From contig NZ_BSYI01000049.1 in NCBI RefSeq assembly GCF_030270585.1, forward strand, positions 1-40,665: 40,665 nucleotides of DNA, given 5' to 3'. The stretch is from Paralimibaculum aggregatum. Lineage in GTDB: Bacteria > Pseudomonadota > Alphaproteobacteria > Rhodobacterales > Rhodobacteraceae. Under the pieces are notes generated by a model that did not search any database, had not been told where the DNA came from, and saw nothing but the letters and a program-made list of their open reading frames with translations. Every line of letters begins with the position of its first letter. The stretch's first letter is position 1. Shown here piece by piece: positions 1,575 to 37,043 of this stretch. The position numbers and the translations under genes were made by a program.

Positions 1575-2090
1575 CTAGAAGAACACCGTCAGCGATCTCG
1601 GCAGGGTCGTGTGGTCGAGGATGACCTGCCGCCGGTGGATGCGCCAGCCGGCATCGGTGCGCCGGAAGGCATCCTGCCGCTCGCCGACATACTGGTGCTC
1701 GAGCCGCCCGAGCCGGGTCTGGTTGACCAGCAGGTTGCAGCGGGTCGCGAGCCCCTCCCCGGCCGGCTCGATCCGCAGGTTGGTGACGAAGTAGCGCAGC
1801 CGCGAGGGCGGCAGCTCGGCATGGGCGAGCGCCGACCTGAAGCGCTCGGCGCGCGCCGCGAGGAAGGTCCGGTCGTCGTCGTAGATCGCGAGATCGCCCT
1901 CGCCCCGGACCCCGAGCGCCCGGTCGTTGTGGGTCTCGCGGACCGGCATCCAGTAGTGGATGTCCTCGGTGAAGGTCGCCTCGATCCAGTCCTCGTAGCG
2001 GCCGGCCTCCAGCAGCTCCGCCTCGGCGAAGTAGAACTGCTCGATCTCGTAGTGCAGCAGGCGGGGGTCCTCGATCGTGTCCAGGGTCAT
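1575..2090 (-). CDS. ring-hydroxylating oxygenase, beta (small) subunit
   Basis: A 171-residue protein of the ring-hydroxylating oxygenase beta-subunit family (SnoaL/NTF2-like alpha+beta barrel). It has the family landmarks: an N-terminal helix (IEQFYFAEAELLEAGRYEDW), the IHYWMPVRET segment near residues 44-53, the FVTNLRI strand near 101-107, and a C-terminal RRQVILDHTTLP stretch. Its length is normal for the family. The subunit has no catalytic metal; in known enzymes it is structural in an alpha3beta3 hexamer. The ATG overlaps the stop of the alpha-subunit gene by 4 bp (ATGA), so the two are probably translationally coupled. It is the last recognisable gene of the operon. No ferredoxin or reductase gene follows in the 1.5 kb downstream. 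Confidence 0.9.
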   Translation of the reverse strand: MTLDTIEDPRLLHYEIEQFYFAEAELLEAGRYEDWIEATFTEDIHYWMPVRETHNDRALGVRGEGDLAIYDDDRTFLAARAERFRSALAHAELPPSRLRYFVTNLRIEPAGEGLATRCNLLVNQTRLGRLEHQYVGERQDAFRRTDAGWRIHRRQVILDHTTLPRSLTVFF

Positions 2091-3406: not shown

Positions 3407-3426
3407 TGTGTGCCTCCCTCTGGTTG

Positions 3427-23655: not shown

Positions 23656-23781
23656 TCACGGTGCCTGAAGCGCATGGGCCGTGTCCAATTCCGTTGAACG
23701 GATGGGTGGGAGCCTTTCCACGGTCGACCGCCCCGCCCCGCGGCAATGCTTGTCTGCAGAGGCAGGCCGGAAAGAGACCCC

Positions 23782-25326
23782 ATGATAGCGATACAGCCGT
23801 CCCGGACCATGCATCCGGCCCCCGCGGCGCCCCGGCGCCGGGGCGGGCGCAGGGCGCGGCGCGCCGGCGCGGCGGATCCGCTGCAGGACCGCGTCCGGCG
23901 CCTCCCGCAATATGCGCTGCTCGACGGGGCGGCGCTCGAGGCCACGGAGCGCCGGGCCCACCGGATTCTCGCCGAGATCGGCGCCGCGTTCCGCGGCGAC
24001 CGCGAGGCGCCGGCGCTGTTCCGCGCGGCGGGCGCGAGCCTGGCGGGCGAGCGGATGCGCTTCACGCCGGGCCATGCGCGCGCTCCGTGCCGGCGCGCCG
24101 GCGCAGGTCGTGCTGCACGGGCGCGAGCCGGCCGGCGACATCGTGCTCGGCGGCGATCATCTGGCGCTTATGCCGGACCATGGCTCGCCCTTCGTAACCG
24201 GTCTCGAGCGCGGCCGGCGCCATGCCGCCATCGAGGGTCTCCGCAACTTCGGGCGCATGACCCAGGCCACGCCCTGTCCGCACCACTCCGGCGGCACCGT
24301 CTGCGAGCCGGTGGCCCCACCGGTCGACAAGCACCATCTCGACATGGTCGCGGCGCATCTGACGCTCTCGGCCAAGCCCTGCACGGGCAGCGTCACGGCG
24401 CCGGAGCGGGCCGCCGGCAGCATCGCGATGGCGCGGCTGGTGCACGGCGCCGGGGCGCGGGCGGTGCTGCAGGCCAGCATCAACGTCAATGCGCCGCTGG
24501 TCCATGGCGAGGCGATGCCGGCGGCGCTCGGGGTCCATGCCGGCGCGGGCCAGTGCGTCGCGGTCACCCCGGCGGTGTTCGCCGGCGCCATGGGGCCGCT
24601 CGCGCCGGCCGCGGTGGCGGCGCAGACGCTGGCCGGGGGCATGGCCGGCATCGCGCTGGCGCGGCTCGTCCGCCCCGGCTGCCCCTGCGTGCTCGGCAGC
24701 TTCCACGCGACGATGAGCCTGCGCCCCGGCGGGCTCGCCTACGGCAGCCCGGAGGCCGATCTGGCGACGCTGGCACTCGGCCAGCTCGGCGTGCCGGTGC
24801 GCTCCGGCGGCGGGCCGATCACCGCCTCGAACGCGCCGGACGGCCAGGCCATGCAGGAGAGCACCGGCGCGATGTGCGCGGCGCTGCTCTCGGGCGCTGC
24901 TCTCGCGCGCGCACCTGGTCTGGCACGCCGCGGGCTGGCTCGAGGGCGGGCTGGCGGCATCCGGCGAGAGGTTCGTGATGGATCTCGACCATTGCTGCGC
25001 GGTGCTCCGGATGCTCGGCGGCATGGCGACGGATGCGGAGGCCGTCGGCCGCGACGCCTATGCGGAAGCCGGGACGGGCCTTCCTCGCCGCCGCGCCCAC
25101 GCTCCGCCATTTCCGCGACGCCAGCCACGAGCCCGCGCTGCCCGATCCCGGCCCCTGTGAGCGCCGGGTGGAGGACGGCGCGCCGCGGCTGGGCCAGCGG
25201 GCAACCGCGCGCCGGAAGGCGCTCCTCGCCGGGCACCGGCCCCCGCCGCTCGACGTGGCCGCCGCCGAGGCGCCCGCGGAGTTCGTCGCGCGCCGCAAGG
25301 CCGGGATGCCGGATGAATGGTACTGA
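23782..25326 (+). pseudogene. MttB-family (trimethylamine/glycine-betaine-type) methyltransferase, frameshifted
   Basis: Joined fragments give an almost full-length protein (about 510 residues) of the MttB/COG5598 corrinoid methyltransferase family. Frame 1 runs from ATG 23782 (YALLDGAALEATERRAHRIL) to about 24080. Frame 2 continues to about 24890 with GSPFVTGLERGRRHA, SINVNAPLVHGEAMPAALGV and CVLGSFHATMSLRPGGLAYG. Frame 3 then gives HLVWHAAGWLEGGLAASGE, to about 25070, and frame 1 finishes with FLAAAPTLRHFRDASHEPAL and ends MPDEWY. All three shifts are equivalent to a +1 insertion. The middle one is a perfect 13-bp tandem duplication. Family members act on methylamines or betaines with a corrinoid protein. 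Divergence outside the shifts is slight, so the inactivation looks recent, or some shifts could be sequencing errors. Confidence 0.85.
24880..24905 (+). repeat. 13-bp perfect tandem duplication causing a frameshift
   Basis: GGCGCTGCTCTCG occurs twice in direct succession (24880-24892, 24893-24905). Removing one copy restores the MttB-family reading frame exactly: the reading passes from CAALLS into RAHLVWHAAGWLEGG without a break. A 13-bp duplication shifts the frame by +1, so this is the direct cause of one of the three disruptions. Confidence 0.85.
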
Positions 25327-26410
25327 CCCCGAGGAGAGAGCTGACCGGGATGCCGGGCCGCCACTCGGCGCGCGCCGCACGCCACCGGGCTCCGCCCTCG
25401 AGGACTGGAACGGCATGGGCACCGCCTGGAGCAATGCCACCGACCCGCGCGCCGGGCACGACGCGGTGCGCGAGCGGGCCGGCATGTTCGACATCTCGCC
25501 ACTGGAGACGGTCTTCCTGCGCGGCCCGGACGCCGCCGCGGTGCTCGACCACCCGACCACGCGCGACACCGCCCGCATCACGCCGGGCCAGGCCGCCCAT
25601 CTCTGCGTGCTAACCGGGCGCGGCACCATCGCCGACGCATGGATGATCGTGCGCGGCTCGGGCGACACCATGGCGCCGCTCGGGGCCTCGGCCGAGGGCC
25701 GCGACGCGGAGCTCCGCTTCACCGGCGATCTGCACGACATCTCGGTGCAGGGGCCGAAGGCGCCGGAGATCCTCGATGCGGCCCGCGGCATCGAGTTCGC
25801 GGCGCTGGCCCAATTCCACCACGCGCCGGCAAGGCTCATCGACCTGCGCTGCCGGATCTCGCGCACCGGCGATTCCGGCGGGCGCGGCTACGAGATCTTC
25901 GCGGACCGCGCGCATGTGGCGGAGATCCAGGGCCGGCTGGCGGCGGCCGGGGCGATGCCCTGCGCCTTCACCGCGCTCGACAAGCTACGGATCGAGGCGG
26001 CGCTGCTGTCCTACGGCCATGACATGACCGACGAGCACACGCGCTGGGATGTCGGCCTCGGCGTCACGGTCACCCGCGGCAGGGCGGCGCGGCCGGTGAT
26101 CCGCAATGTCGGGCTCGGCATCGACCGCGATGACATGGCGGCCGGCGGCGAGACGCCGGCGCTGGACGGTGCCGCGGTCGGCTCGGTCGACAGCCCCTGC
26201 CACGCGCACCGGCTCGGCGGGTCGCTCGCGCTGGCCCATCTGCGGCCGGATATCGCCGATGGCACGGCGCTGCGCCGCGCGGGCGACGGGATCGGCACGA
26301 CGGCGCGGGTGATCGCCCTGCCGGAGCAGGACCCGGCCAGGGCGGCACCCATGCCGCGTGAGCGCGCCCCGGCTCAGCCGGCGCGGGCCGGCGCGGCCCG
26401 GGCGCCATAG
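25313..26410 (+). CDS. GcvT-like aminomethyltransferase-family protein
   Basis: A 365-residue protein of the GcvT/dimethylglycine-oxidase folate-binding family. Landmarks are RAGMFDISPLETVFLRGPDA (near residue 58), HPTTRDTARITPGQAAHLCV, DLHDISVQGPKAPEIL, SRTGDSGGRGYEIFADRA, and the C-terminal-domain DKLRIEAALLSYGHDM. The family's usual GE-x-GYE motif reads GGRGYE here. Homologues act on methylamines or glycine with tetrahydrofolate and are often encoded beside MttB-family genes, as here. The start is doubtful. ATG 25313 lies inside the end of the MttB-like pseudogene, while the good ribosome binding site (GAGGAGAG, 25331-25338) precedes an ATG at 25350 in another frame, so the 5' end may be frameshifted. 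It overlaps the convergent enolase gene by 37 bp. Confidence 0.62.
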   Translation: MNGTDPEERADRDAGPPLGARRTPPGSALEDWNGMGTAWSNATDPRAGHDAVRERAGMFDISPLETVFLRGPDAAAVLDHPTTRDTARITPGQAAHLCVLTGRGTIADAWMIVRGSGDTMAPLGASAEGRDAELRFTGDLHDISVQGPKAPEILDAARGIEFAALAQFHHAPARLIDLRCRISRTGDSGGRGYEIFADRAHVAEIQGRLAAAGAMPCAFTALDKLRIEAALLSYGHDMTDEHTRWDVGLGVTVTRGRAARPVIRNVGLGIDRDDMAAGGETPALDGAAVGSVDSPCHAHRLGGSLALAHLRPDIADGTALRRAGDGIGTTARVIALPEQDPARAAPMPRERAPAQPARAGAARAP

Positions 26411-27789
26411 CCGGGGCCGGCATGGAGGCCGGCGGTGTCGATCTCCCCGCCTTCGATGCGCAGCGTTAGGCGCCGCTCGTCGGCGCGGTAGAGACCGGGC
26501 TGGCGGGCGCGGATCGCGGCGATCGCCTCCGGGTCGAGCCCGGTCCGCCCGTCGCCATAGAAATGCCCGTTGCGCTCGGTGTGGCCGAGGCCGAGCACCG
26601 AGGCCAGCGCAAGGTCCTGCTCCACCGCGAGGCCGGGCGGCGAGCTGAGATCCTCGGCCGACATGAAGAAGGCCGCGCGCCCGGCATCGGCGTTCCAGGC
26701 CGCCACGCGCACGCGGTTGAGCAGCGCCCGGTAGACCCCCTTGCAGGACTTTGCCGAGACCCCGCGATAGCCCATCGCCCGCGCGCCGGGAAAGGCATCC
26801 GGGCAGTCGTCGGATTCGTCGATCTCCACCGCGAGCCCCGACAGGTCCGGCCCGAGCGGGGCGGAGAGCGCCGCCGCCCGCGCCACCGGCTGCTCGACGA
26901 AGGCGATGGCGGCGCGGAGCCGCGCCAGCGCCGGGTCCTCCGCCGCCCGCTGCCAGAATGCCGCGAAGGCCGGGCCGTCGGCGAACTGCTCGTTGCCGTC
27001 GAGGGTCACCGTCAGCCCCTCGATCCGGTCGATCACCGCGGCGATGGCGCGGAGCCGCTCGAGATCCGCCTCCGGCCGGCCGGAGAGCTTGAGCTTGAAC
27101 GCCTTCAGCCCCCAGGCCGCGATGGCCTCCTCGAGCGTCTCCGGCAGCCCGTCGTTCAGGCGGGCCGAAGGGGCGAGCTCGGCCGCGGTCAGCGGGTCGA
27201 TCTGGCCGACGGTGTGCCGCGCCAGCAGCCGGGGGGCCGGGGCGAGCCCGGCCAGCACCCGCGCGATCGCCCCGGCGGAGAGATCCGGCGCGGTCTCCGG
27301 CCCGAGGCCGATCAGGTTGGCCCGCACCACGGCGGCGAAGGGCCGGTTCACGGCGGCGCAGAGCGCGCCGATCACCGCCTTGTCGATCAGCGCCATGCCG
27401 AAGCCGGCGACCAGCCCGTTGAGCCCCTCGCGCGCCGCCTCGGCGCGCTGCGCCGCGTCATGGGCGGCATGGAGGCCGAAGGCGGTCATGTCCTCGCCGG
27501 TGCCGAGATAGCGCGCGCGGGTCAGCGCCAGCGCCCGGCGCAGCTGCGCGACATTCTCGGCATCCGTCAGCGCGGGCGACTTGTCGAACCATTTCGGCGC
27601 CATCAGCTCGGCCGCGGCGCCCTCCGCCTCGCGCCCGTCGGGCATGCGGATGCGGGCCGTGACGCGGGCCTCGACCGCCGCGCGCAGCGTCACCGCGCCA
27701 TAGCGGAACGGGATGCGCAGGCCCACCGGCCGCTCGTCGATCGCGATCCCGATCACGCGGAACCGCGGGGCGCTCTCTGGCGATGTCAT
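26374..27789 (-). CDS. enolase-superfamily enzyme (mandelate racemase/muconate cycloisomerase-like)
   Basis: A 471-residue member of the enolase superfamily, longer than the usual 360-400. The barrel residues are visible: KxK base motif at K232/K234 (AFKLKLSG), first metal ligand D264 with N266 (LDGNEQF), second E299 (FVEQP), third D324 or E325 (EIDESDD), and a second possible base at K347 or K350 (SAKSCKGVYR). Such enzymes abstract a proton alpha to a carboxylate, giving dehydration, racemisation or cycloisomerisation. The reaction here is unknown. It starts at ATG 27789 with GGGAG upstream. It is the last gene of the nine-gene operon, 59 bp after the transporter binding protein. A cytoplasmic catabolic role on the imported compound is inferred. 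Confidence 0.88.
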   Translation of the reverse strand: MTSPESAPRFRVIGIAIDERPVGLRIPFRYGAVTLRAAVEARVTARIRMPDGREAEGAAAELMAPKWFDKSPALTDAENVAQLRRALALTRARYLGTGEDMTAFGLHAAHDAAQRAEAAREGLNGLVAGFGMALIDKAVIGALCAAVNRPFAAVVRANLIGLGPETAPDLSAGAIARVLAGLAPAPRLLARHTVGQIDPLTAAELAPSARLNDGLPETLEEAIAAWGLKAFKLKLSGRPEADLERLRAIAAVIDRIEGLTVTLDGNEQFADGPAFAAFWQRAAEDPALARLRAAIAFVEQPVARAAALSAPLGPDLSGLAVEIDESDDCPDAFPGARAMGYRGVSAKSCKGVYRALLNRVRVAAWNADAGRAAFFMSAEDLSSPPGLAVEQDLALASVLGLGHTERNGHFYGDGRTGLDPEAIAAIRARQPGLYRADERRLTLRIEGGEIDTAGLHAGPGYGARAAPARAG

Positions 27790-27848
27790 GGAGGTCTCCC
27801 GGAATTCTGGCTGCGCGCGGCAGGCCGGGCCGCCGCGCGCGGGGCCGC

Positions 27849-28835
27849 TCAGTCGGCCGGCGGATAGGCGACGCTCTCGTCGATGAAGGCGTTGCTGAAG
27901 CGCGCCGTCACGTCGAAATCCGGCAGCCCGTAGGCCTCCTGCACCACGCCGTAGTCGGAGGCGATCCGGTCCATGTCCCAGGCGCCGACGGGCAGCGCCT
28001 GGCCGGTGCCGGGCATCACGCGGGCGGCGTATTCGAACTGCCGCTCGGCATCGGAGGTCTTCATCGAGACGGCGCTGGAGAGCGCCTCGGTGCAGGGCTC
28101 CGGCGTCTCGAGGCAGAAGGCGAAGGCGCGCTGGGTCACCTGCACCACGGCGCGCACCGCGTCCTGCTTCTCGGCCAGCACCCGGTCGGAGGCATAGTAG
28201 GCCAGGCTGTAGGTGTTCATCCCGTGGTCGCGCAGCAGCGCATAGCCGAGATCGTCGCCGAAGATGTCCTCGTAGATGAAGTGCACCGAGTAGAAATGCG
28301 TGGTCACGTCCACCGCGCCCGACTGCAGCGCCGCGACCTTGCCGGTGGGCTGCAGGTTGACCCATTCCACGGTGTCCGGGTCGATGCCGAGCGCCTTGGC
28401 GGCGGGCTGCCACATCTGCCGGGTGGCGTCGAAGGCCGGTGCGCCGATCTTCTTGCCGGCGAAGTCCTGCACGCCCGAGATGCCGGAGCTCTTCTTCCAG
28501 TAGAGCCCGGCGGCGTTGTCGTTATAGGCCACGAAGACCCCGGTGAAGGGCGCGCCCTTGGCGAGGAACTGCAGCGCCGTCGGGGTGTCGATGATCGCCA
28601 TGTCGGCCTGCCCGACCTCGAGCGCGGTGGCGGCGGCGCCGGAGCCGGTGCCCTGCCGGATCTCCAGCTCGACGCCAGCATCGGCATACCAGCCCTGGGC
28701 CTGCGCGTAGTAGACCGGGGCATGGTCGCCGCCGGCGGTCCAGTTGAGCTGCAGGCTGATCTCCTCGGCGGCGGCGGCGCCCCCGGCGGTCAGCAGCGCG
28801 GCCAGCGCCGCGGCGGTCCCTGTGATGCGTTTCAT
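27849..28835 (-). CDS. ABC transporter binding protein, NMT1/THI5-like (SsuA/ThiY class)
   Basis: A 328-residue periplasmic binding protein. It has a signal peptide (MKRITGTAAALAALLTAGGA, cleavage near AAA-EE) and the NMT1 opening LQLNWTAGGDHAPVYYAQAQ followed by GWYADAGVELEIRQGTGSG. Members bind pyrimidines, aliphatic sulfonates, nitrate or aromatic acids. The LNW-x-AGGDHAPVYYA pattern is closest to the hydroxymethylpyrimidine/riboflavin/N-heterocycle type, but the ligand is not certain. The start has GAGGGAGG upstream. It works with the ATPase and permease encoded just before it in the operon. Confidence 0.9.
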   Translation of the reverse strand: MKRITGTAAALAALLTAGGAAAAEEISLQLNWTAGGDHAPVYYAQAQGWYADAGVELEIRQGTGSGAAATALEVGQADMAIIDTPTALQFLAKGAPFTGVFVAYNDNAAGLYWKKSSGISGVQDFAGKKIGAPAFDATRQMWQPAAKALGIDPDTVEWVNLQPTGKVAALQSGAVDVTTHFYSVHFIYEDIFGDDLGYALLRDHGMNTYSLAYYASDRVLAEKQDAVRAVVQVTQRAFAFCLETPEPCTEALSSAVSMKTSDAERQFEYAARVMPGTGQALPVGAWDMDRIASDYGVVQEAYGLPDFDVTARFSNAFIDESVAYPPAD

Positions 28836-28881
28836 GGTTTTCCTCCCTCGTTATTCTTGGCGCCCGGGTCGGTGCACGCGG

Positions 28882-29646
28882 TCAGTGCATTCCGAGCAGG
28901 TGGTAGATCTCGCGGGTGTAGTTTCCGAACTTCTCCGTGGTCTTGACGTCCAGCGTGCGCGGCTCGGGCAGGTCGATCTCGAACTGCGCCGCCATCCGCG
29001 CCGGCCCTGCCGTCATCACCGCGACCTTGCTGCCGAGGAACACCGCCTCCTGGATGCCGTGGGTGACGAAGAGGATGGTCTTCGAGCTCTCGCGCCAGAT
29101 CCGCAGCAGCTCGAGGTTCATGCGCTCGCGGGTCAGCGCGTCGAGCGCGCCGAACGGCTCGTCCATCAGGATCAGCTTGGGGTCGTGCACCAGCGCCCGC
29201 GCGATCGAGGCGCGCTGCTGCATGCCGCCCGAGAGCTGCTGCGGATAGGCGTCGGCGAATTTCGAGAGCCCGACCATCTCGAGCAGGTCGCGCGCCCGCT
29301 CGCGGCTGGCCCGGCGCGGCAGGCCGAGGATCTCGGCCGGCAGCATCACGTTGTCGATGATCGTGCGCCATTTCAGCAGCAGCGCCTTCTGGAACACCAT
29401 CCCGACATCGCGGCCCGGGGTGAACGGGCTGTCCGGCGTGCCGATCTCCACGGTGCCGCCGCTCGCGGCCTGCAGCTCGGCGAGGATCGAGAGCACGGTG
29501 GACTTGCCGCAGCCCGAGGGCCCGACGATGGAGACCAGCTCGCCCTCCTCGACGTCGAGGGTGACGTCGCGCACCGCGAGGAACTCCTGCGCGCCGGCGT
29601 GATAGGTCTTGGTGACGCCGACGAGGCGGACGAATGGCCGGGTCAT
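28882..29646 (-). CDS. ABC transporter ATPase (SsuB/TauB/ThiZ class)
   Basis: A 254-residue ATPase of the nitrate/sulfonate/bicarbonate class. Walker A GPSGCGKST, Q-loop VFQKALLLKWRT, signature LSGGMQQRASIARA, Walker B LILMDEPFGALD, H-loop FVTHGIQEA. Its ATG overlaps the stop of the permease gene (ATGA), and the binding-protein gene follows after 46 bp. The C-terminal EIYHLLG is typical of the class. Confidence 0.94.
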   Translation of the reverse strand: MTRPFVRLVGVTKTYHAGAQEFLAVRDVTLDVEEGELVSIVGPSGCGKSTVLSILAELQAASGGTVEIGTPDSPFTPGRDVGMVFQKALLLKWRTIIDNVMLPAEILGLPRRASRERARDLLEMVGLSKFADAYPQQLSGGMQQRASIARALVHDPKLILMDEPFGALDALTRERMNLELLRIWRESSKTILFVTHGIQEAVFLGSKVAVMTAGPARMAAQFEIDLPEPRTLDVKTTEKFGNYTREIYHLLGMH

Positions 29647-30398
29647 TTGCCGATCCCCTTGCGCGTGACGACGAGGTATTCGAGCCCGAGCACGAGGCCG
29701 TAGAGCGCCACGCCGATCAGGGTGATGAAGGCCAGCGCCATCATCATCGCCGAGGTGTTGAGGGCGTTCTGCTGCGCCAGCAGGAAGTAGCCGAGCCCCT
29801 TCTGCGAGGCGATGAACTCGCCGACGATGGCCCCCGCCACCGCCAGCACCGCGGCCACCTTCATGCCCGAGAAGAGATAGGGCAGCGAGCCGGGCAGCTG
29901 GATCTTCAGGAAGATCTGCCAGCGGTTCGCCTTCAGCGACTTCACCAGGTTGATCAGGTCCGGCTCGACCTCGAGCAGCCCGCGATAGGTGGTCAGCAGG
30001 ATCGGGAAGAAGCAGATGGTGAAGGCGATCACCATGTTGGGCACGATGCCGAAGCCGAGCCAGACGATGAAGAGCGGCGCCATCGCCACCTTCGGCACCA
30101 TGTTGAGCACCACCAGCAGCGGCATCAGCGCCGCGTTCAGCGCCGGCAGCCAGCTGAACAGCACCGCGAGGCCCACCCCGATCACCACGGCGAGCACATA
30201 GCCGCCGAAGATCTCCTGCGTCGTCGCCCAGATATGCGTGCCCCAGTTGTAGGAGGGCTCCCAGATCTCGGCCAGCGCCGCCCCCGGCGAGGGCAGCAGA
30301 TAGGCCGGCAGGTCGGTCATCACCGTTGCCAGCCACCAGACGACGACAAAGCCCGAAAGCCCGGCCGTGGCCCAGAGATAGCGCGACAGCAGGGTCAT
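29643..30398 (-). CDS. ABC transporter permease (SsuC/TauC/ThiX class)
   Basis: A 251-residue inner-membrane permease with about six hydrophobic segments. It shows the family region YLLPSPGAALAEIWE near the N-terminus, the NMVPKVAMAPLFIVWLGFG stretch, and the EAA loop LLEVEPDLINLVKSLKANRW with LPGSLPYLFSGMKVA. It begins only 3 bp after the epimerase-like gene and overlaps the ATPase gene by 4 bp, tying the transporter to the enzymes of the operon. Confidence 0.93.
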   Translation of the reverse strand: MTLLSRYLWATAGLSGFVVVWWLATVMTDLPAYLLPSPGAALAEIWEPSYNWGTHIWATTQEIFGGYVLAVVIGVGLAVLFSWLPALNAALMPLLVVLNMVPKVAMAPLFIVWLGFGIVPNMVIAFTICFFPILLTTYRGLLEVEPDLINLVKSLKANRWQIFLKIQLPGSLPYLFSGMKVAAVLAVAGAIVGEFIASQKGLGYFLLAQQNALNTSAMMMALAFITLIGVALYGLVLGLEYLVVTRKGIGK

Positions 30399-30401
30399 GG
30401 C

Positions 30402-31448
30402 TCAGAAGCTCCCCGTGCGGACCTGGAACTTGGAGGGCTTGCCGTGGATCGGCTTGCCCTCCTTCACCCAGTCGGCCACCCAGCGGATCATCGCGTCCAT
30501 CGGCACCACCGGGTTGCCGTAGAGCCCGTTGGCCCGGTCGCAGTTGACCAGCAGGCAGTGGTCGGATTCCGCGCCCTCGAAAACCGGCTCGCGGCCCAGC
30601 GCCTCGCCGAAGCGGTTGGCGAGATAGCGCACCGAGACATGCTCCGGCCCGCCGATGTTGATCGGGCTCGCCGGCGTCTCGCAGTTGGCCAGCGTGCGGA
30701 GAAACTGGGCGTTGGCATCGCCTTGCCACATGATGTTCACGTGGCCGGTGGCGAGCGGGATCGGCGTGCCGTCCTTCACCCACTGCGCGATCTCCTGCAT
30801 CACGCCATAGCGCGGGTCGATCGCGTAGACGAAGCGCAGCAGCCGCCCCGGCGTGCCGTGCCTGCGCGAGAAGTACTGGAAGGTGCGCTCCCGCCCGACC
30901 ACCGAGTTGGCGTATTCGCCGGGGCGCGCCAGCGGCGGGCTCGCCTCGGTCACGCCGCCATGCAGCGGGTTCGACCACGGATAGACATGGATGGTGGAGA
31001 AGGCGACGATGCGGCTCTCGCGGAACGCCTCGGCGGTGATCTGCGGCGCCAGCGTGTTCATCGCCCAGAGGAAGTCCTCGCGGCCGCTGGCGTCGAATTT
31101 CAGCCCGGCCATGTAGATCACGTTGGGCAGCTTCGGCAGCGCGTTCACCGCCTCGCGGTCGAGCAGGTCGCAGCGGATGGTCTCGACGCCCCAGGCGTTG
31201 AGACGCTCCTCCACGCCCTCCTCGGAGAAGCGCGAGACGCCGATCACCCGCTTGTCCGGGGCGGCGCGCTTGGCCATCCGCGCCATGGTGACGCCGATCT
31301 TGCCGCCGACGCCGAGGATGATGATGTCGCCCTCCAGCCCGTTCAGGTCGCGCACGACGCCTTCGGTGGGCAGCGACATGAAGTCCTCGAGATGCGCGAC
31401 ATCGCGGAAGCTCTCGGGGAAGGTCTCGGGGGTGAGAAGCTCGGTCAT
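30402..31448 (-). CDS. NAD-dependent epimerase/dehydratase-family protein
   Basis: A 348-residue extended-SDR protein. The nucleotide-binding motif is GVGGKIG (residues 46-52), with D94 in RCDLLDRE and the AFSTIHVYP strand carrying S151. The catalytic YxxxK motif is altered: Y179-ANS-V183, with Val in place of Lys, followed by GRERTF. The substrate-domain INIGGPEHVSVRYLA segment is normal. Loss of the lysine argues for an atypical reaction or a different proton relay. The start at 31448 is favoured by AGGA 6 nt upstream; an ATG two codons earlier exists. The gene lies between the DapA-like gene (18-bp gap) and the permease gene. Substrate unknown. Confidence 0.85.
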   Translation of the reverse strand: MTELLTPETFPESFRDVAHLEDFMSLPTEGVVRDLNGLEGDIIILGVGGKIGVTMARMAKRAAPDKRVIGVSRFSEEGVEERLNAWGVETIRCDLLDREAVNALPKLPNVIYMAGLKFDASGREDFLWAMNTLAPQITAEAFRESRIVAFSTIHVYPWSNPLHGGVTEASPPLARPGEYANSVVGRERTFQYFSRRHGTPGRLLRFVYAIDPRYGVMQEIAQWVKDGTPIPLATGHVNIMWQGDANAQFLRTLANCETPASPINIGGPEHVSVRYLANRFGEALGREPVFEGAESDHCLLVNCDRANGLYGNPVVPMDAMIRWVADWVKEGKPIHGKPSKFQVRTGSF

Positions 31449-31466
31449 GGTCATTCCTGTGTTCGC

Positions 31467-32558
31467 TCAGGCCACCAGAGGCCGGGACTTGCCGGCATCG
31501 CTCAGCCAGCGGTCGAGATTGGCGCGGACGAAGGCGTCGTCGTTCATCTCGGGATATTGGCGATAGACGCGGTCGATCTCGGCGGCCTGGCCGGGGCTCA
31601 TCACCTCGGCCGGGTCGAGGCACCAGGTGCCGGCGAGCAGCCCCTGCCGGCGCAGCACCTCGAGGCAGCCGGGGATGCAGCCGCGCAGGTCGTTGATCGC
31701 GTCGTAGATCGCGAGGTTGCAGTCGGTGACGATGCTGTCCTGCGCCAGCAGGTCCTCGGGGATGTCCACGCCATCCGGCAGCGCGTGCACCCGGTCGAGC
31801 AGTTCCACCGCGGTCCTGGTCCAGACCGACCAGTGCCCGAGCAGGCCGCCGCGGATGCGCACGCGGGTCTCGCTGCGGCCGTCCTCGGAGCGGATCGCGA
31901 AGGGCTGCAGCAGGTCGAGCACGATGTGGTCGTCATTGCCGGTATAGAGGGTCACCCGGTCCGCCGCCCCGGCATCCTGCACGGCGCGGACGATCTCCAG
32001 CGTGCGGTAGCGGTCGAACGGCGCCATCTTGATCCCGGCGACGTTCTCGATCCCGGCGAAGGCGCGCCAGAAGCCGTAGGAGAGGTGGAAGCCCCCCACC
32101 GAGGGCAGCAGCGAGAAGCCGATCACCGGCATCACCGCGGCCACCGCGCGGCAATGCTCCAGCAGCTCCGCCTCCGAGGCGCCCTTCATCCGCGCGAGGT
32201 TGAGCAGCACGAAGTGATAGCCGAGCGCGCGCGCGGTTTCCGCCTCCGCCACCGCCTGCGCGGTGCGCCCGGTGACGCCGGCGACCAGCAGGCGCGGGTC
32301 CTCGGCCCAGTCGGCCACGGTCTCGGCGGCGAGCCGCAGCACCGGCTCGTAGAGCCCGGCCTCGCGGATCGCGAACTGCGTGGTGTGCACGCCGACCGCG
32401 ACGCCCCCCGCACCGGCATCGAGGTAGTAGCGCGTCACCGCGCGCTGGCGCACCGGGTCGAGACGGCGGCGCGCATCGAGCGCCAGCGGATGGGCGGGCA
32501 GCGCGGTGCCGCGGCGAAACCGGGCCAGCGCGGCGGCGGGAATGCTGTCGGGGGTCAT
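31467..32558 (-). CDS. dihydrodipicolinate synthase-family (DapA-like) aldolase
   Basis: A 363-residue class I aldolase-family TIM barrel, about 70 residues longer than DapA. The Schiff-base lysine is K177 in VAGIKMAPFDRY. The usual GTTGE substrate loop is replaced by GVHTTQF (residues 56-62), and the strand that normally carries the catalytic tyrosine reads VIGFSLLPSVGG, with no Tyr. It is therefore not lysine-biosynthetic and probably cleaves or condenses a 2-oxo acid in a catabolic route. The C-terminal extension (from about residue 290) has CNLAIYDAINDLRGCIPG. ATG 32558 overlaps the stop of the CoA-transferase gene by 4 bp. Confidence 0.86.
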   Translation of the reverse strand: MTPDSIPAAALARFRRGTALPAHPLALDARRRLDPVRQRAVTRYYLDAGAGGVAVGVHTTQFAIREAGLYEPVLRLAAETVADWAEDPRLLVAGVTGRTAQAVAEAETARALGYHFVLLNLARMKGASEAELLEHCRAVAAVMPVIGFSLLPSVGGFHLSYGFWRAFAGIENVAGIKMAPFDRYRTLEIVRAVQDAGAADRVTLYTGNDDHIVLDLLQPFAIRSEDGRSETRVRIRGGLLGHWSVWTRTAVELLDRVHALPDGVDIPEDLLAQDSIVTDCNLAIYDAINDLRGCIPGCLEVLRRQGLLAGTWCLDPAEVMSPGQAAEIDRVYRQYPEMNDDAFVRANLDRWLSDAGKSRPLVA

Positions 32559-34156
32559 GCGGTCACCTCGGCGGCCTTTGTGGCGGGGCACTGCCGGAAA
32601 TGCGCCGCATCCATCAGCGGCAGCGGGTCGGCGATGCGGACGGGGGCGAAATCCATCAGGTCGAGCACCTGGCTCTGCAGGTCGATCCCCGGCGCGATCT
32701 CGATCAGCTCGAGCCCGTCCGCCGCGGCGCGGAACACCGCGCGCTCGGTGACGATCAGCGCCTCCTGGCCGCGGATGCGCACGCCCTCGGCGACGCGGTA
32801 GGTGATCGAGGCGGCCGCGCGCACGAACTTGCGCACCTTGCCCTCGCGGGTGATCGCGAGGCGGCCGTCCGCCACCTCCGCCTGCAGCCCGCCGGTGGTG
32901 AAGGTGCCGGCGAAGATCAGCCGCCGCGCGTTCTGGGCAATGTCGATGAAGCCGCCCGCCCCCGGATTGGCCTTGCCGAACTTCGAGACGTTGACCACGC
33001 CGTCGGCGTCGTATTCCGCGAAGGAGAGCGCCGCGAAGGGGCAGAGCCCGCCGTCGATGGCGTCGAACTGCGTCACCCCGTCCATGATCGCGTCCGGGTT
33101 GATGTTGGCGGAGAACTGCCAGCCCGGCATCACCACCCCGCCATAGGCGCCGTGCTCGGTGGTGCCGGGATAGTCGGCCAGCCGCCCGTCATCGAAGAGC
33201 CCCTGCTCGGCCATCACCAGCGGCACGTCGGTGGCCGCGCCGAAGCCGAAGATCGAGAGCTCGTGCGGCCGCACCTCCGGCACGATGCGGTTGGCGATGA
33301 TCCGGTCCGCCGAGAAGGGCGGCGGCGACAGCGTCGCGATGTCGATCCGCGGCCCCGAGAAATAGGCCGGCTCATAGCGCACGCCGGTGGTCATCATCAT
33401 CTCGGGATCGACCACCACCTGGTCGACATAGACCCCCGGCAGGCGGACATCGCTGGCCTTGCGGGCGCCGGCCTCCACGACCCGGCGGACCTGCGCGATG
33501 ACCCGCCCGCCGCTGGCCTTGACGGCGAGCGCCAGCGCGGTGTTGGCGGTGGTGAGCGGCTCGTCCTCCCAGGAGAGGTTGCCGTGCTCGTCGGCGCTGG
33601 CGGCGCGCAGGATCGCCACGTCGAGCGGCCAGGTGGGGTAGTAGAGCAGCTCCTCGCCGTCGATCTCGATCACCCGCACGAGGTCCTCGGTGGTGCGCTC
33701 GGTGAAGCGCCCGCCGCCATGGCGCGGATCGGCATAGGTGCCGAGGCCGACCCGGGTGATGTAGCCCGGGCTCTTGCGGGCGACCTCGCGCAGCCACTGC
33801 ATGCTGGCGCCGATCGGCCAGGAATAGGCCTCGATGCGGTTCTCGCGGATCAGCCGCATCAGCTCCGGCCGCCGGCCGGTGGCGGGATCCACCGGGTTGA
33901 TGAAGCTGCCCGCGACGATGCGCTTCATCAGCCCCTCGCGGGCGACATGGTCCATGCCCTTGATGCCCATGGCATCGCCCGTGCCGCAGGGGAAATAGAA
34001 GGTGAGCCCGCGCGGCGCGCCGGTCTCGGCAAAGCGCCGCCCGAGGGCGCCGAGCACGGCATCCGGCGTGACCCAGCCGATCACCCCGGCGCTGGCCACC
34101 GCGGCGCCGTCCGGGATCGCGGCGACGGCCGCGTCTGCGCTGACGATCTTGCTCAT
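32555..34156 (-). CDS. acyl-CoA:acetate/3-ketoacid CoA-transferase-family protein
   Basis: A 533-residue fused (alpha plus beta) family I CoA-transferase, of normal length for the YdiF/propionate CoA-transferase group. The N-terminal half opens with the glycine-rich AVASAGVIGWVTPDAVLGAL, and the C-terminal half has FGFGAATDVPLVMAEQGLFD. The probable catalytic glutamate is E334 in TTEHGAYGGVVMPG, the position that forms the glutamyl-CoA intermediate in family members. It would move CoA between an acyl-CoA donor and a pathway acid. The start overlaps the stop of the enoyl-CoA hydratase-like gene (ATGA), and its own stop overlaps the aldolase start. Confidence 0.9.
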   Translation of the reverse strand: MSKIVSADAAVAAIPDGAAVASAGVIGWVTPDAVLGALGRRFAETGAPRGLTFYFPCGTGDAMGIKGMDHVAREGLMKRIVAGSFINPVDPATGRRPELMRLIRENRIEAYSWPIGASMQWLREVARKSPGYITRVGLGTYADPRHGGGRFTERTTEDLVRVIEIDGEELLYYPTWPLDVAILRAASADEHGNLSWEDEPLTTANTALALAVKASGGRVIAQVRRVVEAGARKASDVRLPGVYVDQVVVDPEMMMTTGVRYEPAYFSGPRIDIATLSPPPFSADRIIANRIVPEVRPHELSIFGFGAATDVPLVMAEQGLFDDGRLADYPGTTEHGAYGGVVMPGWQFSANINPDAIMDGVTQFDAIDGGLCPFAALSFAEYDADGVVNVSKFGKANPGAGGFIDIAQNARRLIFAGTFTTGGLQAEVADGRLAITREGKVRKFVRAAASITYRVAEGVRIRGQEALIVTERAVFRAAADGLELIEIAPGIDLQSQVLDLMDFAPVRIADPLPLMDAAHFRQCPATKAAEVTA

Positions 34157-34905
34157 GCCGGCACCGTGAAGCGGGCCAGCGTCGCCTTGGCCTCGGCGCT
34201 CTCGCAATCGGCGGCGAAGAGGCGGTTGGCCTCGGCGTCCTGGCGCTCGGCATCGGCGGCGATGGCGGCGGAGAAGAACCGCTTGGTCGAGCGCACGGCA
34301 TCGGCCGGCAGCGCGGCGATCCGGGCGGCCCAGTCCGAGGCCATGGCCAGCGCGCCGCCATCCTCGGCCAGCCCGTCGGCGACGCCGAGGCGCACCGCCT
34401 CCGCCCCGTCCATCTCGAGGAAGCCCCAGGTGATCTGCTGCGCCTTCACCGGGCCGACGCGGGCGAGCAGCGTCTGCAGCCCCCAGGGCGGGATCCAGCC
34501 GTTCGGCACCTCCGGCAGCCCCCATTTCGCGCCGCGCGCGGTCACCACCGCATCGCAGGCGGTGGCGAGGATGAAGCCGCCGCCGAGGGCATAACCCTCC
34601 ACCGCCGCGATCACCGGCACCGGCAGATGCGCGATGCGCCGGGCCATGGCGGCGGTCTCGGCCTCGTGGTGGCACATCTCCGGGATCGAGAGCCCGCCGA
34701 GCTCCTTGAGGTCGCTGCCCGAGCAGAAGGCCGGCGGCGCGCCGGCAAGCACCACCGCGCGGCAGCCCGGGTCCGCCGCCAGCGTCTCGAGCGCCGCGCC
34801 GAGCCCGGCCACGCTCTCCATCCCGAGCGCGTTGCGCCGCCGGGGCTTGTTCATGGTCACGACGGCAAAGCCCTCGTGCCGGTCTGTCTGGATCTGTTCC
34901 GTCAT
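34153..34905 (-). CDS. enoyl-CoA hydratase/isomerase-family protein
   Basis: A 250-residue crotonase-fold protein. Oxyanion-hole regions are present (FCSGSDLKEL near 60-69 and EGYALGGGFILA near 103-114), and the second catalytic glutamate is kept at E132 (KWGLPEV). The first catalytic glutamate of hydratases, at the position after GGGC, is replaced (GGGFI, I112). Simple hydration is therefore doubtful; isomerase, hydrolase or decarboxylase activity on a CoA ester is possible. It starts at ATG 34905 with AAAGGACC upstream, 11 bp after the FAD-oxidoreductase gene. Its stop overlaps the CoA-transferase start. Confidence 0.9.
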   Translation of the reverse strand: MTEQIQTDRHEGFAVVTMNKPRRRNALGMESVAGLGAALETLAADPGCRAVVLAGAPPAFCSGSDLKELGGLSIPEMCHHEAETAAMARRIAHLPVPVIAAVEGYALGGGFILATACDAVVTARGAKWGLPEVPNGWIPPWGLQTLLARVGPVKAQQITWGFLEMDGAEAVRLGVADGLAEDGGALAMASDWAARIAALPADAVRSTKRFFSAAIAADAERQDAEANRLFAADCESAEAKATLARFTVPA

Positions 34906-34916
34906 CCCTGGTCCTT

Positions 34917-36254
34917 TCAGTCGAGCCGCGCGCCGTCGCGGTTGAGGATGCCGCGCAGGTCGCGGCCGTCGATGGCGCGCGGCGCCAGTCCCTCGCGCAC
35001 CGCAAGGCGCGCGGCATGGCCGATGGCGTGGCCGTAGCCGAAGCACTGCGCGGTGACGCGCGCCGAGGCGACCGCCTCGTGCTCGGCCGAGAGGCAGCGC
35101 CCGGCGGCGAGGATCCCCTCCCCCCGCTCCGGCACGAAGCAGCCATAGGGCACCTCGTAGACATCGTTCAGCAGCCACTCGACGCGGGGCTTCTCGCCGG
35201 CATGCAGCTCGATCGGCCAGGGCGAGCGCACGATGCCGTCGGCGAACTTGGTGCCGGCCACCACGTCGCGGTTGCCGAGCCGCGCGGTGCCGGAGATCTG
35301 CCGCGTCTGGCGCACGCCGACCTGCACCGCCATGTCGTTGACGAAGGCGTTCTCGCAGCCGGCGAGGCGCGCGCGGAAGAAGCGCGCATAGTCGCGGGCC
35401 TGCCGGCGCCCCTGCGTCTCGGCCTCGGCGAAATCGCGCCAGTGGAGCGGGTTGAGCTCGCGCCCGTCGGCGCCGACGATGCGGGTGCAGTTGCAGAGCA
35501 GCTCGCCCGGGCGCGTGGTGGGAAAGAGCCAGATCTTGGCCCGCGGCAGGGTGAAGGTGCCGGCCCGGTTGGCCGCGGCGATCATCTCCGAGACCTCGGC
35601 CGGCATGATCGTGTCGTCGCCATAGGCGGCGCGGAAGGCCGGCACGTCGACCCCCATCAGCCGGAAGATCATGGTCGGGTTCTGCACCCGGCCGTTGTCG
35701 CCGACGAAGCTCGGCAGCCCGGCCATCGCCACCAGATCGGCATCGCCGGAGGCATCCACCGTGAGCGGCGCCAGCACCCTAAGCGGCCCCTGCTTGGTCC
35801 AGAGCTCGACGCCCTCGATGCGCTCGCCCTCCGCCAGCACCCGGGTGGCGACGGCGTGGTAGATCACCGTGACCCCGGCCTCGGCGAGCAGGTCGTCGGC
35901 GGTCTCGCGCCAGACGATCGGGTCGTGCACGCGGGTGAAGGTCTTGCCGTAGCGCACCGGATCGGCCAGCCCGCCGCGCGCCTCGAGCGCCCGGACGAAC
36001 GCCTCGGCAAAGCCGAACACCGCCTGCACCGGGCCGTTGCCGGGGTTGTCGGAAGCCTCGTAGAGCCCGCAGACGGTGCCGGAATGGCCGGCCACCGCGC
36101 CGCCGCCGCAGAAGCCGTGGCGCTCGATCAGCACCACCTCGAGCCCGCCGCGCGCCGCGGTGACCGCCGTGGCCACGCCCGCGGCGCCGCCGCCCACCAC
36201 CACCAGATCCGCGCGCAGCTGCTCCGTGCTGCGCATGTCCTGCGCGGCTGCCAT
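34917..36254 (-). CDS. FAD-dependent oxidoreductase (FAD_oxidored family)
   Basis: A 445-residue flavoprotein. The dinucleotide-binding motif is VVVGGGAAGVATAVTAARGG (residues 17-36), followed by VVLIERHGFCGGGAVAGHSG, a pattern of the FAD-dependent oxidoreductase family PF12831. The second FAD contact is LTVDASGDADLVAMAG, and the C-terminal FAD region is EGILAAGRCLSAEHEAVASA. It would oxidise or reduce the pathway substrate in the cytoplasm; the substrate is unknown. ATG 36254 is chosen because GGGGAGG lies 6 nt before it; an in-frame ATG at 36260 abuts that site. It is the first gene of the nine-gene operon and diverges from the GntR/FCD regulator gene. Confidence 0.9.
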   Translation of the reverse strand: MAAAQDMRSTEQLRADLVVVGGGAAGVATAVTAARGGLEVVLIERHGFCGGGAVAGHSGTVCGLYEASDNPGNGPVQAVFGFAEAFVRALEARGGLADPVRYGKTFTRVHDPIVWRETADDLLAEAGVTVIYHAVATRVLAEGERIEGVELWTKQGPLRVLAPLTVDASGDADLVAMAGLPSFVGDNGRVQNPTMIFRLMGVDVPAFRAAYGDDTIMPAEVSEMIAAANRAGTFTLPRAKIWLFPTTRPGELLCNCTRIVGADGRELNPLHWRDFAEAETQGRRQARDYARFFRARLAGCENAFVNDMAVQVGVRQTRQISGTARLGNRDVVAGTKFADGIVRSPWPIELHAGEKPRVEWLLNDVYEVPYGCFVPERGEGILAAGRCLSAEHEAVASARVTAQCFGYGHAIGHAARLAVREGLAPRAIDGRDLRGILNRDGARLD

Positions 36255-36275
36255 CGCCATCCTCCCCGTGTTCTC

Positions 36276-36313
36276 CATCTGACATATCAGATGTTTTATA
36301 GATGTGTATCTAT
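36276..36313. promoter_or_regulatory. two perfect inverted repeats in the FAD-oxidoreductase/GntR divergent promoter
   Basis: In the 111-bp, A+T-rich gap there are two perfect dyads only 4 bp apart. The first is CATCTGA-CATA-TCAGATG (36276-36293, 7-bp arms). The second is ATAGAT-GTGT-ATCTAT (36298-36313, 6-bp arms). Two dyads about 20 bp apart centre to centre, that is about two helical turns, suggest co-operative binding of a dimeric regulator. The adjacent GntR/FCD protein is the obvious candidate, because such regulators typically control a divergent catabolic operon and themselves. Confidence 0.65.
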
Positions 36314-36365
36314 TGCCGAACAGGCTGTCAATCGCTAGTCTCCGGCCGACAGGGAAAGGACCGGG

Positions 36366-37043
36366 ATGAACGAGCAGAGCGAAACCGCGGCGCCGATCTC
36401 CACCGCCGAGCAGGCCTATGCCGAGATCCAGCGGCTGATCGTGATCGGCACGCTGCCGGCCTATGAGCTGCTGTCGGAGAACGATCTGGCGCGGCGCATC
36501 GGCTGCGGCCGCACGCCGGTGCGCGAGGCGCTGCAGCGGCTGAAGTTCGAGGGCTTCGTGGATATCCTGCCGCGGCGCGGGATCATGGTGACGCCGGTCG
36601 ACATCACCCGCCAGCTCGAGCTGCTGGAGACCCGCCGCCCGCTCGAGGAGCTGATGGTCTCGCTGGCGGCGGTGCGGGCCGACGAGCGCCAGCGCGCCGA
36701 GATGCTGCGCCTGGCCGACGAGCTCGAACGCGCCATCGCCGCGCGCGACCGCGGCCGCTATCTCGAGATCAACCGCGAGATCCACCGCATCGAGGCGGAG
36801 GCGGCGCGGAACCGCTATCTCACGCAGCACATCCATCTGCTGCATGGGCTCTCGCGGCGGTTCTGGTACTCCTTCATCACCGAGACTGAGAGCTTCTCGG
36901 AGGCGGCGGTGCACCATGCCCGCACCCTGCGCGCCATCGCGGCGGGCGAGCCGGAGACCGCGCGGCAGGAATGCGTCGCGCTGCTCGATCTGCTCGAGCA
37001 GGTCTCCCAGAAGGCGATCCGGGAGCGTCTGAGGGGCGGCTGA
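36366..37043 (+). CDS. GntR-family regulator with FCD domain
   Basis: A 225-residue regulator. The winged helix lies at about residues 12-80 (AEQAYAEIQRLIVIGTLPAY, LSENDLARRIGCGRTPVREA, LQRLKFEGFVDILPRRGIMV). It is followed by an all-helical FCD ligand domain with EINREIHRIEAEAARNRYL and AAVHHARTLRAIAAGEPETA; the conserved Asp/His residues of the metal site correspond to this region. The start at 36366 has AAAGGACCGGG upstream. It is divergent from the nine-gene catabolic operon and very probably represses it until a pathway acid binds. Confidence 0.93.
   Translation: MNEQSETAAPISTAEQAYAEIQRLIVIGTLPAYELLSENDLARRIGCGRTPVREALQRLKFEGFVDILPRRGIMVTPVDITRQLELLETRRPLEELMVSLAAVRADERQRAEMLRLADELERAIAARDRGRYLEINREIHRIEAEAARNRYLTQHIHLLHGLSRRFWYSFITETESFSEAAVHHARTLRAIAAGEPETARQECVALLDLLEQVSQKAIRERLRGG

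Follow-up and report, generated by a model that had tools for sequence, protein, structure and literature searches.

The 40,665-nucleotide stretch of Paralimibaculum aggregatum DNA analyzed here (contig NZ_BSYI01000049.1, positions 1 to 40,665; hereafter the window) contains a catabolic operon built of known enzyme families and accompanied by its own regulator gene. Nine genes on the minus strand span positions 36260 to 26374, separated by 3–59 bp or overlapping by 4 bp. Starting from the gene for an oxidoreductase dependent on flavin adenine dinucleotide (FAD), the order is 11 bp, crotonase-fold protein, 4-bp ATGA overlap, coenzyme A (CoA)-transferase, 4-bp overlap, DapA-like enzyme, 12 bp, epimerase-like protein of the short-chain dehydrogenase/reductase (SDR) family, 3 bp, ABC permease, 4-bp overlap, ABC ATPase, 46 bp, NMT1-type substrate-binding protein, 59 bp, and enolase-superfamily protein. 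All junctions from the FAD gene to the ATPase gene are thus 4-bp overlaps or gaps of no more than 12 bp. Gene order, strand, spacing, and the divergent GntR/FCD gene, as claimed in an earlier reading made from the letters of the window (the sequence-only reading), were reproduced from the coordinates (Table 1). Eight of the nine operon genes and the regulator gene were backed by Pfam, the matches being weak for the DapA-like and epimerase-like proteins. The FAD oxidoreductase gene starts at either 36260 or 36254, and the ABC ATPase matched the NCBIfam taurine ABC ATPase model at 1.3e-59, under the cut-off of that model. The analysis below centers on the DapA-like and SDR proteins (the core pair) and on their coupling, across two phyla, to the FAD oxidoreductase, crotonase, and CoA-transferase (the FAD/CoA module).

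Table 1. Genes and features of the operon region in the window
Feature	Position	Strand	Supporting evidence
GntR/FCD regulator, divergent	36366..37043	+	Pfam GntR 9.9e-15, FCD 1.5e-20
Palindromic putative operator CATCTGATATGTCAGATG	36276..36293	strandless	core CTGAYATRTCAG at 36279-36290
FAD-dependent oxidoreductase	34917..36260	-	Pfam FAD_oxidored PF12831 4.6e-114, 1-416/416; alignment A2
Crotonase-fold protein	34153..34905	-	Pfam ECH_1 3.4e-43; alignment A5
Class I CoA-transferase, YdiF/FadX type, Glu334	32555..34156	-	phmmer to YdiF 2ahu 1.5e-101
DapA-like class I aldolase-fold enzyme, Lys177, Ser149	31467..32558	-	Pfam DHDPS 1.2e-7; profile to NAL/DHDPS structures
Extended-SDR oxidoreductase, TerB-like, Tyr181, Val185	30402..31454	-	Pfam Epimerase 5.4e-9; TerB by profile and Foldseek
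ABC permease	29643..30398	-	Pfam BPD_transp_1 3.7e-27
ABC ATPase, taurine/nitrate-type family	28882..29646	-	Pfam ABC_tran 4e-31
NMT1/THI5-type substrate-binding protein	27849..28835	-	Pfam NMT1 5.7e-43; PDB 4nmy 1.8e-14
Enolase-superfamily protein, MLE-like residue set, optional	26374..27789	-	alignment A4; model matches MR/MLE structures

Related loci were collected with the DapA-like protein as query against one genome from each of 84,980 species, and the best 80 of at least 561 related stretches were kept. The layout of the window, termed type A (GntR, followed by FAD, crotonase, CoA-transferase, DapA, SDR, permease, ATPase, and substrate-binding protein), was found in full in L034 (Phaeobacter, with the enolase gene in addition), L035, L036, L037, and L039; L033 ends inside the substrate-binding protein gene and L038 starts inside the CoA-transferase gene, on the fragment of which, at the contig end, it was counted as module-bearing. 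The search for conserved synteny that the sequence-only reading had suggested thus found the type A order again in Phaeobacter, Martelella, Devosia, and metagenome-assembled genomes (MAGs) of Rhodobacteraceae, at 50–90% identity per gene, a recurrence that goes beyond chance. A second set of loci is actinobacterial (L040–L042, L045, L047, L088, L104, L105, and the plasmid loci L117 and L129); these carry the DapA-SDR pair together with a class III CoA-transferase, a crotonase, and an FAD oxidoreductase, and a LacI regulator in all but L088.

The other 65 of the best 80 loci carry the DapA-like gene, accompanied by an SDR gene in 51, an NMT1 binding-protein match in 38, and an enolase gene in 21, and GNAT, TetR, TctABC, MocA, DUF993, xylose-isomerase-like, MetE-like, or PhyH genes recur among them. 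No FAD match at E ≤ 1e-10 was found in these 65 loci, 33 of them being visible over 9 kb or more on each side. L073, with crotonase (34%) and CoA-transferase (41%) matches 7–8 kb from the DapA-like gene and no FAD match, was counted in this group. The widespread, unnamed DapA-SDR-GNAT-TetR-ABC loci of Alpha- and Betaproteobacteria thus share a homologous DapA-like protein with the window, and in part the SDR, binding protein, and enolase, but differ from the window clade in lacking an FAD match and in carrying Tyr149/Gln151 in the DapA-like protein and Cys185 in the SDR.

In the tree of 90 DapA-like proteins, the 18 rows from module-bearing loci, which belong to Pseudomonadota and Actinomycetota, form one clade with support of 100/99. 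In the SDR tree, the 17 module rows lie on one side of a branch of length 0.66 with support of 100/100. The trees cover the best 80 loci (for SDR, those with a match that spans 80% of the query) together with the window and plasmid loci, and leave out L126 and some plasmid matches; the DapA row of L034 is a fragment (300 columns). Quick trees agreed with the careful ones for both proteins, L038 being unlabelled in the quick tree and therefore counted as an extra change. Residues were counted over the 90 DapA-like and 66 SDR tree rows, and the smaller alignments use 22, 26, and 23 chosen rows, with L046 excluded from alignment A3 and the ends of L109 (A3) and L034 (A4) trimmed before the stop codon.

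The same division is seen in the residues of the DapA-like enzyme. The Schiff-base Lys177 is present in all of 26 chosen rows and in all 90 tree rows. At position 149, all 18 module rows carry Ala or Ser (Ser in the window) and 71 of the 72 others carry Tyr, the remaining one having Phe; position 151 is Leu in 18/18 module rows versus Gln in 72/72 others, and positions 120, 189, and 285 likewise split the two groups. The distance from position 149 to Lys177 is 28 residues, the same as that from the Tyr of the YN motif to the Lys in the DapA protein of the same genome (L152). The catalytic tyrosine of Escherichia coli DapA is Y133, located 28 residues before its lysine, and the tyrosine lost at position 149 in the module clade is probably the catalytic one. 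The fold family and the Schiff-base lysine are shared with the class I aldolases of the DapA/NAL family (dihydrodipicolinate synthase and N-acetylneuraminate lyase), but the DapA-like protein is about 50–60 residues longer, carries conserved motifs of its own (H[TS]TQF, TGNDDH, GHWSVW, and E[VI]LR[RK]QGL), and in the module clade has no Tyr at 149.

The SDR partner shows a parallel switch. Tyr181, Ser153, Thr154, and Lys119 are invariant in 66/66 rows, and position 185, where the lysine of the YxxxK motif is expected, is Val in 17/17 module rows and Cys in 49/49 others and never Lys, the motif being absent from the family; 21 further positions separate both groups by the rule of the script used. 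The extended-SDR fold and the glycine-rich motif GVGGKIG are present, and the fold is supported by a structural model (predicted local distance difference test, pLDDT, 89.8) with which Foldseek agrees. Best matched by both profile and Foldseek is TerB, an NADP-dependent oxidoreductase of terfestatin biosynthesis (PDB 6d2v and 6nd7), to which the identity is about 21%; TerB keeps the lysine (YPVGK), whereas the window SDR family has YANSV or YANSC. Because a probably catalytic Tyr is lost in the DapA-fold enzyme and the Lys position is altered in the SDR, the chemistry of the pair probably differs both from that of the two textbook families and from that of the sister clade, near whose genes no FAD gene was found.

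Further sampling was in agreement with this division. Among additional DapA-like proteins, 33/33 were of the Tyr type (29 of 34 non-window matches in the window's class and four others, two of which come from one genome; some of the 33 may already be among the best 80), the loci being about 4 kb long. No FAD match was found in 16–19 kb around three of the four others (L149–L151), and the fourth (L141) was viewed over 4 kb. L126, which stands outside the trees, is of the Tyr type and without the module. In searches of 396 genomes from the phylum of Leifsonia and 398 from its family, six new loci were found, one of the Ala type, whose neighbors include CoA-transferase, crotonase, FAD, LacI, and enolase genes, and five of the Tyr type, all without an FAD gene. 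At the level of sequence, therefore, DapA-like and SDR subfamilies are coupled to the FAD/CoA module across two phyla.

Loci with the core pair come from Pseudomonadota, Actinomycetota, Bacillota, and Planctomycetota. The distribution is patchy, the DapA-like gene being found in none of four congeners, in four of 61 genomes, and in 35 of the 385 genomes sampled from the window's class (the last two counts include the window's own genome). The FAD gene was detected at E ≤ 1e-90 in seven of the same 385 genomes, and in the genomes outside the window's own that carry both genes (G289, G292, and G370) the FAD and DapA-like genes are on separate contigs. Composition gave no sign of recent transfer, the GC content being 0.715 in the operon and 0.706 elsewhere in the window, with GC at third codon positions of 0.94–0.96 throughout the operon. 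The plasmid records examined give the pair generic names only, and a whole-operon DNA search found no plasmid record with 80% of the operon. As a separate observation, a trio of MocA, DUF993, and xylose-isomerase-like genes recurs beside enolase or DapA-like genes (L118, L046, L055, L058, L059, L066, L069, L077, L079, L087, L090, and L092); no mention of DUF993 was found in the literature searched.

Within the FAD/CoA module, the CoA-transferase gives a full-length match to class I enzymes of the YdiF (2ahu) and Staphylococcus FadX type, and its Glu334 is aligned to Glu333 of YdiF, presumably the catalytic glutamate; against the FadX equivalog model, however, the score is 293.8 with a cut-off of 750. 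The motif around this residue is TTEHGAYGG in the window and TTEHG(A/S)YGG in the window, six type A loci, and L113. The CoA enzyme beside the FAD gene is of class I in the window and its kin, of class III in Actinomycetota, and a PaaK-like ligase in L144. Since CoA-activating enzymes of different classes fill the same place, thioester formation is probably what is conserved and not the enzyme, and the funnelling through acyl-CoA postulated in the sequence-only reading gains support from these swaps.

Enoyl-CoA hydratase employs two catalytic glutamates, of which the crotonase of the window keeps only the second. The second Glu (E132 in the window) is kept in 11/11 rows, and the first is replaced by Ile (Ile112 in the window) in all eight rows that come with a class I CoA-transferase and present in the three other rows (L117, L129, and L144). 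The sequence-only reading left unnamed the three enzymes in which it saw changed motifs; such changes were confirmed for the DapA-like enzyme (probably), the epimerase-like enzyme, and the crotonase, and Glu334 of the CoA-transferase and the acid/base and metal residues of the enolase-like protein are present. The unusual residues of these three enzymes are fixed subfamily traits; decay was also considered as the cause of the changes and was rejected, the residues being fixed across clades.

The FAD gene is found also with IlvD (L114, L115, and L120) or with an MR/MLE protein (L116 and L148), so that its partners elsewhere are often of acid-dehydratase families. A second FAD oxidoreductase of the window's genome, 51% identical, lies in L148 (contig C4, 80000–99000) with MR/MLE and GntR genes, next to two large open reading frames that by eye are hydantoinase-like and a TctA-type carrier. 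Close FAD relatives are present in L142 (63%) and L146 (55%), in assemblies of 1.3 and 1.5 Mb, where the neighbors are a TRAP-type carrier (by eye) and PhyH, or a TctA-type carrier and an AtuA-like protein, with no DapA-like gene in the stretch.

A palindrome separates the regulator gene from the operon. Its core, CTGAYATRTCAG, has one exact site in the 5.5-Mb assembly, the reversed control having none, and is expected 0.08 times in the window at ≤1 mismatch. It was found 19–42 bp before the aligned FAD start in 7/7 readable type A loci (window, L033–L037, and L039) at ≤2 mismatches, five being exact, with one mismatch in L036 and two in L037. Considering all 28 loci with an FAD gene, the core occurs within 300 bp upstream at ≤2 mismatches in 11, which besides type A are the Vibrio plasmid L116 (exact) and L143–L145 (two mismatches), and was not found in 17 (L113–L115, L142, L146–L148, and ten actinobacterial loci). 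A GntR match adjoins the FAD gene in L033–L037 and L039, and the genome has 23 FCD matches, the GntR/FCD gene of the window among them. The palindrome was labelled terminator-like on the plus strand by the scan, but is read as an operator because it is conserved; it is a putative repressor site of the GntR/FCD protein. A scan for sigma-70 promoters gave no site by the rule of the tool, although TTGACA is present upstream of the palindrome.

The last gene of the operon has a looser association. Residues K232, K234, D264, E299, D324, and K347 of the enolase-like protein, comprising the KxK motif, three acidic metal ligands, and opposite lysine, are present in 23/23 rows, the residue pattern of the muconate-lactonising-like subgroup. 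Pfam gave no match for the protein itself but assigned MR_MLE_C to a relative, and the model of the protein (mean pLDDT, 88.9) matches structures of mandelate racemase and muconate cycloisomerase. The gene lies inside the operon in three of the eight type A loci (window, L034, and L038), and the genome of L037 has a 42% homologue elsewhere, outside the operon. At E ≤ 1e-20 it was not found in six of ten genomes (L033, L035, L036, L039, L040, and L060); among these, the genomes of L033, L035, L036, and L039 carry the type A operon, three being MAGs that may be incomplete. The enolase proteins form no single module clade (two changes on the tree). The nine genes put forward in the sequence-only reading are accordingly rejected as a fixed set, the enolase gene being optional and not one clade following the module, and the core consists of eight genes. 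The claim of a single import-and-catabolism unit with its own regulator was supported, and, as noted in the same reading, no published counterpart of the operon or described pathway with this gene set was found in the literature searched, some of the searches being narrow.

As to the substrate, the small organic acid or heterocycle of the sequence-only reading was suggested by the NMT1 transporter alone. Relatives of the core pair adjoin carbohydrate ABC transporters, Gfo/Idh/MocA proteins, xylose-isomerase-like/sugar-phosphate-isomerase proteins, acetylxylan esterase, DUF2264, LacI or ROK regulators, and TctABC carriers, and on one plasmid the enolase gene is accompanied by a gene for 5-deoxy-glucuronate isomerase. 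Because the neighbors of the relatives are of carbohydrate type, a carbohydrate-like or polyhydroxylated acid is favored as the substrate over a heterocycle.

We infer from these features the following mechanism, in which the repression, the order of steps, the class of substrate, and every reaction are proposals. The GntR/FCD protein would repress the operon from the palindrome just upstream of its first gene, and the NMT1-type ABC importer would take up a carboxylic acid, which is most likely carbohydrate-like or polyhydroxylated. In operons that include it, the enolase-superfamily enzyme would remove the alpha-proton of this acid, leading to dehydration, epimerization, or ring opening. The DapA-fold enzyme, forming a Schiff base through Lys177, and the SDR would work together as a unit that takes the resulting 2-oxo compound, whose redox state would be adjusted by the SDR and which the DapA-fold enzyme would cleave or dehydrate. 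After oxidation of the released acid by the FAD enzyme, the CoA-transferase would form the CoA thioester, which the crotonase would rearrange or hydrolyze for entry into central acyl-CoA metabolism. That the operon constitutes one inducible pathway of this kind is held tentatively, at a little short of even confidence. A bolder proposal is possible but doubtful: the Tyr-less DapA-fold enzyme and the Lys-less SDR would catalyze an undescribed two-enzyme reaction on a 2-oxo polyhydroxylated acid, the product of which would pass obligately to FAD oxidation and CoA activation, in a pathway common to Pseudomonadota and Actinomycetota but with non-homologous CoA enzymes.

Several observations weigh against the proposed pathway. 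The coupling is one-way, the FAD-crotonase-CoA-transferase set being found without the DapA-SDR pair in L113 (Methylobacterium nodulans) and L120 (Rhodococcus koreensis), and the FAD gene alone, within the stretches examined, in L114–L116 and L142–L148. The crotonases of the other phylum are 29–37% identical to that of the window and differ at the first Glu, and hence the crotonases of the two phyla may catalyze different steps. The correspondence of position 149 to Tyr133 comes from alignment and spacing, and HMMER aligned Phe148 there, which makes the loss of the catalytic Tyr at 149 only probable; if Phe148 is the true counterpart, the tyrosine would be missing from the whole DapA-like family. 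In PDB, the NMT1 binding protein matches the unnamed binder 4nmy and a putative exported protein along with binders of the THI5 type and binders of taurine and pyrimidine precursors, a set that suits a heterocycle or sulfonate equally. The type A operons are without MocA or sugar-isomerase genes, and the hint of a carbohydrate is thus borrowed from relatives.

The alternative that survives best, itself unlikely, is that an aromatic, cyclic, or heterocyclic acid is imported through the NMT1 system, oxidized by the FAD enzyme, activated with CoA, cleaved in a crotonase-type ring opening, and processed by a DapA-type hydratase-aldolase. The THI5-type and pyrimidine-precursor binders among the matches of the binding protein, the PaaK-like ligase at the CoA step in L144, and the best NCBIfam match of the crotonase (oxepin-CoA hydrolase, alternative type, far under the cut-off) are consistent with it, and TerB, the nearest SDR structure, was crystallized with polyporic acid (title of 6nd7), a benzoquinone. 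The carbohydrate ABC transporters, MocA and xylose-isomerase-like proteins, and LacI/ROK regulators next to relatives of the core pair, however, argue for another class of substrate, and the ring-hydroxylating dioxygenase of the window is 22 kb away (part of the window genes being scanned). This dioxygenase (alpha and beta subunits) is located at 1575–4420 on the minus strand, and sulfatase, AMP-binding ligase, and sulfotransferase genes are among those between it and 23 kb.

It is also improbable, and slightly more so, that two unrelated units, GntR-FAD-crotonase-CoA-transferase and DapA-SDR-ABC, act on different substrates. The FAD-crotonase-CoA-transferase set is accompanied by a branched-chain-type transporter in Methylobacterium nodulans and by MFS and IlvD genes in Rhodococcus koreensis, and DapA-SDR-ABC without FAD occurs in many loci, as such a division would predict; both phyla, however, show this DapA-SDR subclade coupled to the module, each of the two core enzymes having a matching residue switch, and the FAD-to-ATPase junctions of the window are too tight (4-bp overlaps or ≤12 bp) to favor it.

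Lower still in probability is a variant of the oxidative uronate pathway, in which the SDR would be a uronate dehydrogenase, the enolase-like protein a lactone cycloisomerase, and the DapA-like protein a keto-deoxyglucarate dehydratase/decarboxylase. The folds of Udh, Gci, and KdgD are the same three as those of the operon's SDR, enolase-like, and DapA-like proteins, and this joint occurrence speaks for the variant. At E ≤ 0.001, NCBIfam gave a single match for the DapA-like protein, namely 5-dehydro-4-deoxyglucarate dehydratase (E 4.7e-4), and 3,6-anhydrogalactonate cycloisomerases are among the Foldseek matches of the enolase-like model. The SDR profile, on the other hand, retrieved from PDB at E ≤ 0.01 two TerB entries and one GalE, with no uronate dehydrogenase among the three, its lysine position is Val, and the search for the enolase gene came up empty in four of the eight genomes with the operon, three of them MAGs. 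Udh, Gci, and KdgD are described as steps of the oxidative uronate pathway of Agrobacterium (PMC6353982); compared with that set of three folds, the SDR of the window is without specific affinity, and the FAD, CoA-transferase, and crotonase enzymes are extra and have no role.

Catabolism of a quaternary amine (betaine), with the adjoining MttB and GCV_T genes accepting methyl groups, is very improbable: MttB and GCV_T domains are encoded immediately downstream on the plus strand, on a Vibrio plasmid the FAD gene comes under the same palindrome and is accompanied by genes for an MR/MLE protein and a BCCT carrier, and the fold matches of the enolase-like protein include 4h2h, presumably the hydroxyproline-betaine epimerase HpbD, but the MttB frame looks broken, tblastn with the MttB and GCV_T pieces gave nothing at E ≤ 1e-5 in 17 other module loci, and the enolase-like fold matches are generic (16–17% identity). 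In the window, this stretch is at 23746–26410 (+), with the MttB domain split over two frames and its match ending at profile position 379/500; the GCV_T domain follows in the same frame, and the open reading frame overlaps the 3' end of the enolase gene by 37 bp. The MttB-GCV_T stretch looks like a broken gene.

Returning to the proposed pathway of an acid processed by the core pair and the FAD/CoA module, the combination of the altered pair with helper enzymes of the same kinds, seen in two distant groups of bacteria, points to an undescribed degradation pathway. A clean active-site switch divides the pair into two groups and tracks the presence or absence of the nearby CoA-linked module, and the function of the pair is therefore testable by a comparison of related enzymes from the two groups. 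For annotators, F[AS]LL versus FY[LM]Q may serve as a residue signature by which the two groups of DapA-like proteins can be separated.

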